Below are positions 17,269 to 20,933 of a DNA stretch of 23,070 nucleotides, in pieces. A program made the position numbers and the translations under genes. Positions within the stretch are counted from its first letter, which is position 1. The number at the start of each line of letters is the position of its first letter. Source of the DNA: a virus; IMG/VR virus record IMGVR_UViG_3300013087_000007, positions 1-23,070 of that record; one strand, written 5' to 3'. The notes beneath the pieces were generated by a model. It saw nothing but the letters and a program-made list of their open reading frames with translations. It made no database searches and was not told the origin of the DNA.

Positions 17269-17596
17269 TTTCCTTGCTCGACTGGACATAGGCGTACAGG
17301 ATCACCACATAGTTGATGATGTCCAGAACGGTGTCCCGCAGGGCCTCGTCCTTGACCTTGAACTCCCCGGTGGTAATGAAGGTACTAAGGCGAGACATCT
17401 TGTCCGTCAGGCGGACCATGATCCCAGCCTCAGTCTTACAGATGCCCATGGCCTCACAGCGGGTGAAGTTCAGGAAGGGATGGGTATCGTCCTTGCCCCC
17501 GCTGTAGTCGTGGTTCTTACGCTCCGAAAGAGACCGGGCCTCTTCGGTCAGTTCCTTGTGCATTGCCAACAGTCGTGATCGATTCATGGTGTCCAT
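17261..17596 (-). CDS. DUF1599/Nmad1-like protein, possible nucleotide-modification or MazG-like helical protein
   Basis: The 111-residue product has ERKNHDYSGG near the N-terminus, followed by PFLNFTRCEAMGI. Further on are TEAGIMVRLTDKMSRLSTFI and LRDTVLDIINYVVILYAYV. The order K-N-x-D-Y, N-F, R-x-x-D-K-x-x-R-L and D-x-x-x-D-x-x-N-Y is typical of the DUF1599 (nucleotide modification associated domain 1) family. Those are all-helical proteins often found beside phage replication genes. Biochemical function of the family is not settled; a role in nucleotide metabolism or base modification is inferred from genomic associations. The start at 17596 was chosen because AAGGAG lies eight bases upstream, and it overlaps the exonuclease stop by 13 bases. 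Confidence 0.7.
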   Translation of the reverse strand: MDTMNRSRLLAMHKELTEEARSLSERKNHDYSGGKDDTHPFLNFTRCEAMGICKTEAGIMVRLTDKMSRLSTFITTGEFKVKDEALRDTVLDIINYVVILYAYVQSSKENE

Positions 17597-18315
17597 AGTT
17601 TGATCTCCTTGGTGTTCCAACAGTACTCGCCATCTCGCAGAATCCTAGCGCACCTAGCCTGAGTCAGGGCGTACTCTTCAGTAAACCCAGACTTCTCGTA
17701 GGCACCAACCACTTCGTCCCAAGTTCCGTTCTTCAGGATCTTGGCGGCGGTCACCGGGCCAACACCTTCAAGGCCCGGGTAGCCATCGGTCTTGTCCCCG
17801 GTCAGGACCTGTGTAAGAAAAAATACATCTGCTTTCTTAGGGTCGATCTCCACAGGCTGCTCGTCTTTGTCGGGATTCCACAGCCAACCCGGAACGCTAT
17901 TCAGGTCTTTGTCGGAGGAAACGATGACGGTCTTCCCCATAGTACCGCCAGTCTGAACCAGACCGAGAATATCGTCGCCTTCAAGACGCGGCTCCACCAA
18001 CACCCGGTACCGATCATGCAGCAGTTCCTTGACGGCTTTGTAACCGCAGGGCTTTCTACAGGCTTTCCGGTGGGACTTGTAATCGGGATAGACCTCCTTG
18101 CGGTAGTTCTCTGCTCCCGTAAACGCAATAACTGGGCTCTCTGCATCGATGGTGGCCTTCCATTTGTTGAGGGTGTCTTCACAGATCGCTAGGGCCTCTT
18201 GAACATTACCGAACACGACATCGGTGTCCTCATCGAACCTAGCCACATATTCAATCGCAGAGCAGACGGAGTAGATCAGGATGTCTCCGTCCACTAACAT
18301 ATGGTCGAACTTCAT
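17584..18315 (-). CDS. 5'-3' exonuclease, T7 gp6-like
   Basis: The 243-residue enzyme has the flap/RNase H-type nuclease pattern. LVDGDILIY (D9, D11) is followed by the basic helix ENYRKEVYPDYKSHR (69-83), LEGDD (111-115) and VSSDKD (132-137). TGDKTD (172-177) then runs straight into the helix-3-turn-helix motif GLEGVGPVTAAKIL (181-194). All metal-binding acidic positions look intact. In T7, gp6 removes RNA primers and degrades host DNA, supplying nucleotides and helping recombination. T7 gp6 is 300 residues, so this is a compact version. The start overlaps the small upstream gene's stop as TAATG, with a purine-rich GAGGGCGAG before it. Confidence 0.92.
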   Translation of the reverse strand: MKFDHMLVDGDILIYSVCSAIEYVARFDEDTDVVFGNVQEALAICEDTLNKWKATIDAESPVIAFTGAENYRKEVYPDYKSHRKACRKPCGYKAVKELLHDRYRVLVEPRLEGDDILGLVQTGGTMGKTVIVSSDKDLNSVPGWLWNPDKDEQPVEIDPKKADVFFLTQVLTGDKTDGYPGLEGVGPVTAAKILKNGTWDEVVGAYEKSGFTEEYALTQARCARILRDGEYCWNTKEIKLWTP

Positions 18316-18518
18316 TACTCGCCCTCGCTATTCAGGGCTGCTTCCTTGGCGAATGAGATCAGACCAAGAGTGCCGTGCATGGAGCCCTTGGCAGTCAGGG
18401 TGTACGAGTCATCCTTGGAGGTCTTGGACTGGAACCCGATGAAGACCATCTCGTCAAAGCGGTTCTTCAGTTCCTTCAGGATCTCGCCCGTACCCATGAA
18501 TTCAATTGGAGTAGACAC
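18315..18518 (-). CDS. Small protein of unknown function
   Basis: The 67-residue product starts at a GTG with GAGG seven bases upstream, and overlaps the end of the LAGLIDADG-type gene by 17 bases. It has an acidic N-terminal helix (GEILKELKNRFDEMVFIGF) and a later stretch SYTLTAKGSMHGTLGLISFAKEAAL. That form, a strand, a Gly-rich turn and an amphipathic helix ending in AK, is common in short proteins of tailed phages with no assigned role. I do not recognise a function. Tight coupling on both sides supports that it is expressed with the replication genes. Confidence 0.65.
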   Translation of the reverse strand: MSTPIEFMGTGEILKELKNRFDEMVFIGFQSKTSKDDSYTLTAKGSMHGTLGLISFAKEAALNSEGE

Positions 18519-18834
18519 TTTTGAGCCTCTTAAGGGTTTTGATGTAGTGTGAACGGATCATCGGATCCTTGGACTGACGAACGAGAAACAAGGCCACAAT
18601 CTGTGGGTACTTGATCACGGAGTACCGGGCTACAGCCAATAGGTACTTGATAGCCTTGTCTCCGCAGAGGGTCCAGACAAACACCTCGCCACCCTTCTCG
18701 CGGATACTGCCGCCCCACTTGCCGCGCATCAAGGACAGCACACCAAAGTGTTTGTTTGTGACTTCAACACATGGAGTACCGTTCCACCGAACGCAGCCCT
18801 CGCCATCCAATAGGCCAGCAGCAAATGCGTTCAA
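18502..18834 (-). CDS. Small LAGLIDADG-type homing endonuclease-like protein, probable TTG start
   Basis: The likely product of 110 residues begins MNAFAAGLLDGEGCVRW, which contains the LAGLIDADG helix (AAGLLDGEG) with E12 at the catalytic acid position. It is followed by strands, VFVWTLCGDKAIKYLLAV, and YSVIKYPQIVALFL. The W..xGxxA..yL and K.pQ pattern is the rest of the core of this fold. It has one motif only, so it would act as a homodimer. It is short compared with I-CreI (163 residues) and may be degenerate. The TTG at 18834 shares bases with the polymerase TGA and has GGGGAG at ideal spacing. An upstream ATG at 18885 would overlap polymerase by 55 bases. Such genes often sit beside the gene whose allele they target, here DNA polymerase. 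Confidence 0.7.
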   Translation of the reverse strand: MNAFAAGLLDGEGCVRWNGTPCVEVTNKHFGVLSLMRGKWGGSIREKGGEVFVWTLCGDKAIKYLLAVARYSVIKYPQIVALFLVRQSKDPMIRSHYIKTLKRLKSVYSN

Positions 18835-20585
18835 TGTGTTTCTCCCCAGTTGAGCCCCACGCGGTACTCGCCGTCCAGTTGGCATCGGAAACCACAGTCC
18901 TTTCCGGCTTGTTGAATAGCCGATACAACTAGGCTACCAACCATACAAGCGGATTCGGGGTCAGTAACAAACTGATACTCGTCATGGACAGAGGCAACCT
19001 GATCGACCTTGATGCCATGTTCGATGAACAGAGCATGGGCATTCACACAGGCTTGCTTCATCACAACAGCCCCGGCAGACTGGAGCAGAGTATTCAGGGC
19101 AGCGTGTTCTGACCTTGGATACAGAGGGCGACCATCAAGACCCTTCAAGAAGCCGTGTGTAGCCAAAGACCTAGAGACATCCTCTTTCAGTCGAAGGTAT
19201 GCAGGAACCTTGGCCTCAAAGTTAGCACGGGCCTTGGAGCCACGGCTCTTGCTGCCGCCAAGGACCAACCCCAACTTGTCGTTGCCTGCACCGTAGATCA
19301 GCGCGTAGATGGCACCCTTGGCTTGATTGCGGATGGCCTTGTGTTCTGCGCCCTTGTCGTACTCGACATCCTTGACCAGACCGAACGCCTTGGCGTTGGC
19401 CCAATGGATGTCTCCCTCAAGGATCTGCTTGGAGTAGGTACCTCCGTCATAGCGGCCTAGGTAGTGCGCTAGGCACCGCAGTTCCAGACCAGAGGCATCC
19501 ACCCCTACAAGCCGCTTCCCGGGGCCTGCAACGAACAGGGAGCGGTACTCCTTCTCGGTGGGCACCTGAGCCATGTTGGGCTTGCTGTGGGTGCAGCGGC
19601 CTGTAATGGCCCCGTTGGTGTTGACCCGGCCATGGATGCGCTTGTCCTTGGTGACCAGTTTCATCCAAGCCTCGTTGCCTGTAGCCAGTTGGCCCACACG
19701 CTTGCCAAGGGTCAGGTACTCCACCAACAGCGCAGCCTCGGGGTAATCCAACGAAGCCAAGACAGACTCGTCTACCCGGGGGCGACCATCGGGAGTGAAC
19801 TCTGTGGGCTCCCAACCGTATCGCTCCTTGAGTCGTTCAGCGATCTGCAAGCGGCTACCCGGGTTGAAAACCTCTTGCTTGGGCTTCAGGGGCCTCCCAG
19901 TCTTCTCAGAGACCCGGGCAATGCTCTTGGGAGGGAACACCTTAGCCAGTTCGCCTTCCAGTTCCATGAGCCGTTGGGCGATCCTGCCGTGGAGATCCAC
20001 AGCCGCAGCCATGTCAAACGCAAAGCCAACTCGCTCCTGCTGCTTGACAATCCTGAAGAATGAATGCTCCAGTTCGATTGCCTGAGTAGCCGTAGGAAAT
20101 GCCCTGTGTGACTCTAGGTACTTCCACAGGGCTGTGGTGACCCGGACATCCTGCTTGCAGTACTCAATAAGGCCGTCCGTGACCTTATCGAATACGGGGG
20201 CTTCAGCCTTGGAGACGCCCAAGCGGTATCCCCAAGCCTTGAGGCTATGAGATCCCACCAGTTCCTTGGGCATCCCCGGCAGGCCGAAGTCTTTCTCCCG
20301 TTGATCAGCATGGAGCAACCGGGCAGTCACCATGGTATCCCGGACCTTGGAGAAGTCCACCACAAACTTGGGAAACAGGTGCATCAGGGCCGGAATGTCA
20401 AAGCCCAAGATGTTGTGACCAACGATGATGTCTGCTTGCTTCATCAGGCCGAAGGCTTGGTCTGCTGAGACCGCCTGTGGTTCCTGATCGTCTACCTGAA
20501 CACAGATGCACAACAGAGTTTTCAGGTCTGTCAGATTGTGCCAGTCATTGATGTCGTTCGTTTCGATGTCGATTGTGACCCGCAT
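18831..20585 (-). CDS. DNA polymerase, family A (T7 gp5-like), compact
   Basis: The 584-residue enzyme replicates the phage genome. The 3'-5' proofreading domain is intact: D6/E8 in TIDIETN, HN (57-58) with D63 in VGHNILGFD, and Y142/D146 in YCKQD. The polymerase motifs are A (VDASGLELRCLAHY, D363), B (HKAIRNQAKGAIYALIYGAG, with K423 and Y427) and C (HDEYQ, D535). T7 gp5 is 704 residues. The thioredoxin-binding insertion found in its thumb is missing: SIARVSEKTGRPLKPK runs straight into VFNPGSRLQIAERL, so processivity must be obtained differently. Y427 matches the T7 Tyr526 position. AAGGAG lies seven bases before the ATG. The LAGLIDADG-type gene begins on its stop codon. Confidence 0.97.
   Translation of the reverse strand: MRVTIDIETNDINDWHNLTDLKTLLCICVQVDDQEPQAVSADQAFGLMKQADIIVGHNILGFDIPALMHLFPKFVVDFSKVRDTMVTARLLHADQREKDFGLPGMPKELVGSHSLKAWGYRLGVSKAEAPVFDKVTDGLIEYCKQDVRVTTALWKYLESHRAFPTATQAIELEHSFFRIVKQQERVGFAFDMAAAVDLHGRIAQRLMELEGELAKVFPPKSIARVSEKTGRPLKPKQEVFNPGSRLQIAERLKERYGWEPTEFTPDGRPRVDESVLASLDYPEAALLVEYLTLGKRVGQLATGNEAWMKLVTKDKRIHGRVNTNGAITGRCTHSKPNMAQVPTEKEYRSLFVAGPGKRLVGVDASGLELRCLAHYLGRYDGGTYSKQILEGDIHWANAKAFGLVKDVEYDKGAEHKAIRNQAKGAIYALIYGAGNDKLGLVLGGSKSRGSKARANFEAKVPAYLRLKEDVSRSLATHGFLKGLDGRPLYPRSEHAALNTLLQSAGAVVMKQACVNAHALFIEHGIKVDQVASVHDEYQFVTDPESACMVGSLVVSAIQQAGKDCGFRCQLDGEYRVGLNWGETH
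18832..18847 (-). promoter_or_regulatory. Ribosome binding site deciding a TTG start inside the end of DNA polymerase
   Basis: GGGGAG ends seven bases before a TTG whose last two bases form the start of the polymerase TGA. It supports translational restart of the LAGLIDADG-type gene on the polymerase stop codon, instead of the upstream ATG at 18885. Confidence 0.6.
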
Positions 20586-20597
20586 ATGGTTCTCCTT

Positions 20598-20933
20598 TTA
20601 AACCAGATCTTTCAGTTGTATTCCGCGCTTTGCAAAGTATGCCCTGAACTTCTGCAAGGCACTTTCGTGGGCTCTGATGGCCGCATCGGGTGAGATGGGA
20701 TCATCAGGATTCATTGCTGTGTACCTCTCGGCTAGATCACGCCAACCTTGGAAGTCAGACAGGATCTTCTCCTCGACCTTCCGGTAGGTTGGCTTGTAGC
20801 CACGCCTTCGGACGAACGAGATCAGTTGAGGGCTGACCCCGAACATCCGCGCAAGTTCAACGCCCTTCTTGCCTTCCCGTGACAACCGGATTACATCAGC
20901 AACTTGGTCTTCTGTCAAGCGTCTAGGGTTCAT
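20598..20933 (-). CDS. Helix-turn-helix DNA-binding protein
   Basis: The 111-residue product opens with LTEDQVADVIRLSREG (6-21), then ELARMFGVSPQLISFVRRR (27-45). This is a clear helix-turn-helix of the resolvase/homing-endonuclease-tail type. The rest is helical, with an acidic WRDLAERY...PDDPISPDAAIRAHE stretch and a basic end (FRAYFAKRGIQLKDLV). No nuclease motif accompanies the DNA-binding region, so a regulator, a replication accessory or the remnant of a mobile endonuclease are all possible. It overlaps the upstream gene as ATGA, and its stop is followed directly by the polymerase ribosome binding site. Confidence 0.7.
   Translation of the reverse strand: MNPRRLTEDQVADVIRLSREGKKGVELARMFGVSPQLISFVRRRGYKPTYRKVEEKILSDFQGWRDLAERYTAMNPDDPISPDAAIRAHESALQKFRAYFAKRGIQLKDLV

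Follow-up and report, generated by a model that had tools for sequence, protein, structure and literature searches.

The stretch of viral DNA analyzed here (the window; positions 1 to 23,070 of IMG/VR record IMGVR_UViG_3300013087_000007, 23,070 nucleotides) carries a small LAGLIDADG gene directly behind its DNA polymerase gene, and on balance we take it to be an active, free-standing homing endonuclease gene at a post-polymerase nuclease hotspot. The genes of the locus lie on the minus strand in the order primase/helicase, DNA polymerase, LAGLIDADG gene, gp67, exonuclease, and gp119, a pattern found in T7-like phages (Table 1). The LAGLIDADG frame, whose sequence includes FAAGLLDGEGCVRW, has in its 127-aa form a 55-nt overlap with the polymerase, read in the −1 frame, and in the shorter form its TTG (18834–18832) has two bases in common with the polymerase TGA (18833–18831). 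Searches of the window for introns and tRNAs (Rfam and ARAGORN) found none, and inverted repeats were likewise sought and not found. Upstream of the polymerase (20598–20933) lies a gene for a 111-aa helix-turn-helix-like protein, which is 35–70% conserved, far below the primase of the same phages.

Table 1. Features of the polymerase–exonuclease region (window coordinates)
Feature	Position	Strand	Remarks
DNA polymerase gene, T7-type, family A	18831..20585	-	584 aa; intact C-terminus ...GLNWGETH; Pfam DNA_pol_A 1.1e-41
LAGLIDADG gene, most likely extent	18502..18885	-	ATG at 18885 to TGA at 18502; 127 aa
Best supported start codon, ATG	18883..18885	-	From polymerase Arg567-Cys568 (CGA TGC), −1 frame
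GGGGAG, resembling a ribosome site	18842..18847	-	7 nt upstream of TTG; window and L001 only
LAGLIDADG gene core, TTG form	18502..18834	-	110 aa; alternative start in this phage
LAGLIDADG motif AAGLLDGEG	18796..18822	-	Glu codon 18801–18799 is the catalytic acid position
Lys75 codon	18610..18612	-	Corresponds to the active-site lysine conserved in I-CreI/I-MsoI
gp67, small conserved gene	18315..18518	-	Starts with GTG; 17-nt overlap with the LAGLIDADG gene
5'-3' exonuclease gene, T7 gene 6 type	17584..18315	-	

The frame is not a chance one, since it has 26 distinct homologues at 53–96% identity and a dN/dS of about 0.15. Taken alone, the window protein matches Pfam LAGLIDADG_3 weakly (15 bits, under the gathering cut-off of 22.5), but each of the 25 sequences in the first alignment hits that family, at best with 1e-6. 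When the PDB was searched with the single protein, no relative appeared; relatives came from the family profile only, which matches I-MsoI (1.4e-12), I-CvuI (1.1e-05), and also I-CreI. The AlphaFold model of the 110-aa form (pLDDT 95, pTM 0.86) contains the alpha-beta-beta-alpha-beta-beta-alpha core fold and superposes over its full length on I-CvuI, I-MsoI, and I-CreI (VIA Z 12–14, rmsd 1.8–2.7), the best-quoted superposition being that on I-MsoI (Z 13.7, rmsd 1.9 over 109 residues).

The catalytic positions are also kept. The acid at the eighth position of the motif is E in 79 of 80 distinct homologues and D in the other, Lys75 is unchanged in all 81 sequences compared, and Asn27, at the position of Gln47 in I-CreI, is N or S across the homologues. 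There are no degenerate copies among the 80, a set sampled partly by the conserved motif. From the profile match, the predicted fold, and these positions, we conclude that the protein belongs with the single-domain LAGLIDADG nucleases of I-CreI/I-MsoI type, as the first-pass annotation had proposed in calling it a single-motif LAGLIDADG-type gene; the structure prediction, which that annotation had named as able to overturn the assignment, has the expected fold. The protein would act as a homodimer and presumably cleaves DNA. The earlier concern that some 110 residues are near the lower limit for a homodimer is a weak one, since the whole chain superposes on the I-CreI/I-MsoI core. The best PHROG of the protein, phrog_5046, is labelled "HNH endonuclease"; no HNH family match was found and the predicted fold is LAGLIDADG, so this label is a misnomer.

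The start codon deserves particular care. The first-pass annotation began the gene at the TTG on the polymerase stop, behind a well-spaced GGGGAG; both elements are present, but a gene start there is unconfirmed, as neither is conserved. The codon at this position is TTG, CTG, or CTA in relatives of the window's clade, and GGGGAG occurs only in the window and the near-identical L001. A better supported candidate lies further upstream. The polymerases have a conserved end, Arg-Cys...Asn-Trp-Ala-Glu-Thr-His, and the third base of this Arg codon and the TG of the Cys codon together form an NTG that is in frame with the LAGLIDADG gene and precedes the TTG by 17 codons. This NTG is ATG, GTG, or TTG, and never CTG, in 30 of 30 distinct sequences (the fragment L042 excluded), although 27% of Arg codons across these polymerases end in C. 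Among 17 conserved Arg columns (weighted, 17 clusters), the start-site column alone is free of C-ended codons, and 59% of its codons end in A, compared with at most 29% in any other. Where phages lack the overlap, 13 of the 24 corresponding Arg codons in their polymerases end in C (Fisher p 0.00015, to be read as a guide, the sequences being related).

Several lineages deviate from this arrangement. In L144 and L146 a stop lies between the upstream site and the TTG site, but there is a TTG with AGGAG five codons upstream. In L162 and L264 the gene has its own ATG and ribosome site after the polymerase stop and begins MALGRNT(I)NAYSAG, which repeats the "LGRNT" that others encode inside the polymerase; this tail repeat is the best of 208 phages (15/20 and 14/20), and we infer that the overlap was undone here by a short duplication. 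The duplicated piece of the polymerase tail (L162 2964–3001, L264 3240–3290) supplies both the start and the ribosome site. A different overlap, in the +1 frame, is seen in L217–L220, L249, L274, L288, L291, L297, and L302, where an ATG made from the polymerase GAT GGN lies 40 nt ahead of the end of the polymerase; L289 and L296 lack any ATG, GTG, or TTG at that position. In other lineages the LAGLIDADG gene starts on TGATG or TAATG.

The ATG at 18885 is thus the likely start in this phage, while the TTG with GGGGAG may serve in its place. Translation from the TTG by termination-reinitiation, giving 110 aa, would make use of the GGGGAG 7 nt upstream, would resemble the ATG or GTG that commonly overlaps or adjoins the polymerase stop in distant homologues (e.g., L030, L171, and L180), and would yield a chain that already covers the fold. 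We nevertheless think it unlikely, given the CTG or CTA of many relatives, the poor conservation of GGGGAG, the retention of "LGRNT" upstream of the motif in L162 and L264 even with an ATG of their own, and L144, which begins no later than the TTG five codons upstream. The AlphaFold model of the 127-aa form, in which residues 1–5 of the extension have pLDDT <50 and a helix runs from residue 15, neither proves nor excludes the longer form.

Three other lines of argument were set aside. For −1 ribosomal frameshifting from the polymerase into the LAGLIDADG frame, no slippery heptamer was seen by eye in the overlap. Synonymous-site constraint in the polymerase tail, considered as proof of the overlap, is only weakly raised (ratio 1.11, with 16% of windows as high), and the open −1 frame in the tail is confounded by base composition.

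The gene is found in the same place in about 50 viral contigs with polymerases at least 56% identical; the window's clade, 20 lineages after dereplication, has it throughout. More distant lineages (polymerase 41–50%) often carry a LAGLIDADG gene as well (L030, L165–L184, L187, L200–L221, L249–L254, and, in part, L288–L303). One lineage, L185 (2938–4894), has two adjacent frames with three LAGLIDADG-profile matches, two domains being in one frame, and no polymerase match on the locus. Among cellular genomes, a close relative was found on a single MAG contig, which has the same gene order and is evidently phage.

The sister group, L282–L287, is without the gene. These phages, with polymerases 58–63% identical to those of clade members, came from a search with polymerase sequences, which is unaffected by whether the LAGLIDADG gene is present. 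Here lies the uninterrupted junction that the first-pass annotation had suggested looking for, the polymerase stop overlapping the start codon of the gp67 homologue, an ATG (as TGATG or TAATG); in L285 and L286 the exonuclease begins 229–238 nt after the polymerase. Polymerase and gp67 are intact at filled and empty junctions alike. The candidate cleavage site hoped for at the empty junction did not materialize: no site was predictable, and a search for a palindromic target at empty polymerase/gp67 junctions gave nothing above shuffles. As a separate observation, L282, L284, and L287 have a 215-aa gene with no assigned function inserted between gp67 and the exonuclease, about 205–865 nt behind the polymerase.

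In a 103-row polymerase tree, all 20 members of the window's clade carry the gene (SH-aLRT 98), all 5 of the sister group lack it (100), and the next group carries it. Over the whole tree, presence of the gene takes 7 state changes, compared with 34.6 for shuffled labels. The LAGLIDADG gene is a fixed resident inside the window's clade, with empty alleles one clade away; the pattern that the first-pass annotation had named as counting against its reading, all close relatives carrying the gene with no empty alleles, holds inside the clade and fails one clade further out. A gain in the window's clade would account for this distribution, and so would a loss in the sister group.

Purifying selection acts on the gene, with a sum dN/sum dS over 15 close pairs of 0.149 (polymerase 0.086, exonuclease 0.095). 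Its distances follow those of the polymerase (r 0.68, Mantel p 0.0005) about as exonuclease distances do (0.73), and the gene is an old, stably inherited resident of its spot. The window and L002 form the exception, with LAGLIDADG proteins 81% identical compared with 69% for the polymerase and 68% for the exonuclease, the largest excess of 190 pairs. Identity in this pair is elevated from the polymerase tail through gp67, which is suggestive of one local exchange and no more.

The slot behind the polymerase is used by other genes too. Among relatives without the LAGLIDADG gene, it holds Endonuclease_7 (L344, 6e-20; L313, L102, and L345), T5orf172 (L349 and L331), PDDEXK_5 or Hjc (L298, L332, L309, and L339), an endonuclease PHROG (L227), uncharacterized EVK-type proteins whose nuclease status was judged by eye only (L110, L261, and L311), other genes, or nothing, several relatives having a bare polymerase/exonuclease junction of 12–50 nt. 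T7 itself (L357) has gene 5.3 here, which matches PDDEXK_5 (1.1e-10). Homologues of slot genes occupy the slot in 32 rows; in 7 rows they lie elsewhere, in five cases just upstream of the polymerase. This count is biased by queries taken from the slot itself. The slot nucleases lie 0–500 nt behind the polymerase, and a number of them apparently overlap its tail as well. One might read the place as a functional nuclease position in T7-like phages. Many of them would then retain a nuclease there, T7 with its gene 5.3 included, drawn from at least four unrelated fold classes (LAGLIDADG, PD-(D/E)XK, Endonuclease VII/HNH, and GIY-YIG); these nucleases would do equivalent work, for instance against co-infecting relatives, and the overlapping reading frames would couple their expression to the polymerase. 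We hold this reading to be quite doubtful.

If the gene is a homing endonuclease gene, its product would act on co-infecting relatives without the gene, cutting their DNA at the uninterrupted polymerase/gp67 junction or in polymerase sequence close by. Phage recombination would then copy the gene, together with adjoining polymerase sequence, into the genome that was cut. Translation would most likely begin at the ATG inside the polymerase (18885), and because this start lies out of frame within the polymerase, expression may be tied to polymerase translation. Support for homing comes from the profile and structural matches to I-MsoI, I-CvuI, and I-CreI, from catalytic positions kept without degenerate copies, from the dN/dS, from filled and empty junctions with polymerase and gp67 intact, from other nuclease folds in the same slot of other lineages, T7 gene 5.3 among them, and from the excess between the window and L002, as local exchange would give. 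Homing endonuclease genes (HEGs) adjoining polymerase genes are documented (PMC10448857). Against it stand the lack of presence/absence variation inside the clade and the few changes on the tree, which fit a domesticated gene too, together with the failure to find a palindromic target at the empty junction. The agreement of LAGLIDADG and polymerase distances counts against free mobility, and the absence of any degenerate copy, in a set sampled in part by the conserved motif, contrasts with the decay that intron-borne LAGLIDADG endonucleases are reported to undergo (PMC13405050).

The main rival is an old LAGLIDADG endonuclease now serving the phage (e.g., in recombination, in genome processing, or in cutting competing phages or satellites) and kept for that benefit. 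Fixation in one place throughout the clade and in many distant lineages, vertical inheritance, and the want of decayed copies all agree with domestication, and several unrelated nuclease folds in one slot, T7 included, could mean that some nuclease is useful there; domesticated phage HEGs exist, such as Odn of ICP1 and the HNH protein of HK97 (PMC10448857). On the other hand, the sister group and many others do without any nuclease in the slot and several bare junctions exist, so no nuclease is required there, and a shared hotspot explains the diversity of folds equally well. We regard domestication as a serious possibility, though the less likely one. A relic, that is, a former homing endonuclease without activity that persists by chance, would accord with the sub-threshold Pfam score of the window protein, but with invariant catalytic positions and a dN/dS of about 0.15 over wide divergence it is very improbable. 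An active homing endonuclease at a hotspot is the explanation that we prefer.

Phage LAGLIDADG genes are often carried by inteins or introns. This one is compact, intact, and free-standing; it has stayed at a single position while the T7-like phages that carry it diverged widely, and the sister group offers clean empty alleles. This defined pair of filled and empty junctions makes homing versus domestication directly testable. The unrelated nucleases found behind the polymerase, from T7 to the window's clade, give T7 gene 5.3 a comparative context. Annotators should be cautious, as the start probably lies out of frame inside the polymerase, and both the start and the family would come out wrong from gene callers and PHROG labels (HNH). 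Phage LAGLIDADG genes, HEGs beside polymerase genes, and domesticated HEGs are already known (PMC10448857); a free-standing LAGLIDADG gene behind a T7-like polymerase was not found in the literature searched. Likewise, no such gene behind a polymerase was recognized in isolated phages among 50,697 records, going by the feature names under matches.

The closest structural parallels, I-CreI, I-MsoI, and I-CvuI, are homodimeric and encoded in organellar group I introns. The phage protein shares with them the single LAGLIDADG motif, the same predicted fold over the whole chain, and the catalytic acid and lysine positions; it differs in being free-standing with no intron found, in its size (110–127 compared with about 160 residues), in having Glu for Asp, and in the Asn at Gln47 of I-CreI. 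Among phages, single-domain LAGLIDADG genes of Cyanophage PP and of Gordonia, Streptomyces, Caulobacter, and Sphingobium phages are also free-standing, with products 26–36% identical and of similar predicted fold; in Cyanophage PP, the only isolated phage whose neighborhood was read, the gene lies between terminase and portal. T7 gene 5.3, also small and of nuclease type, immediately follows the DNA polymerase gene of T7, but its PD-(D/E)XK fold is unrelated to LAGLIDADG. The HEG islands of ICP1-like phages resemble the present locus in that nuclease genes cluster beside essential genes such as the DNA polymerase gene, and differ in being mostly of the T5orf172 and HNH types; in that data set, at least 8 of 20 LAGLIDADG genes are intein-borne in nrdA (PMC10448857).
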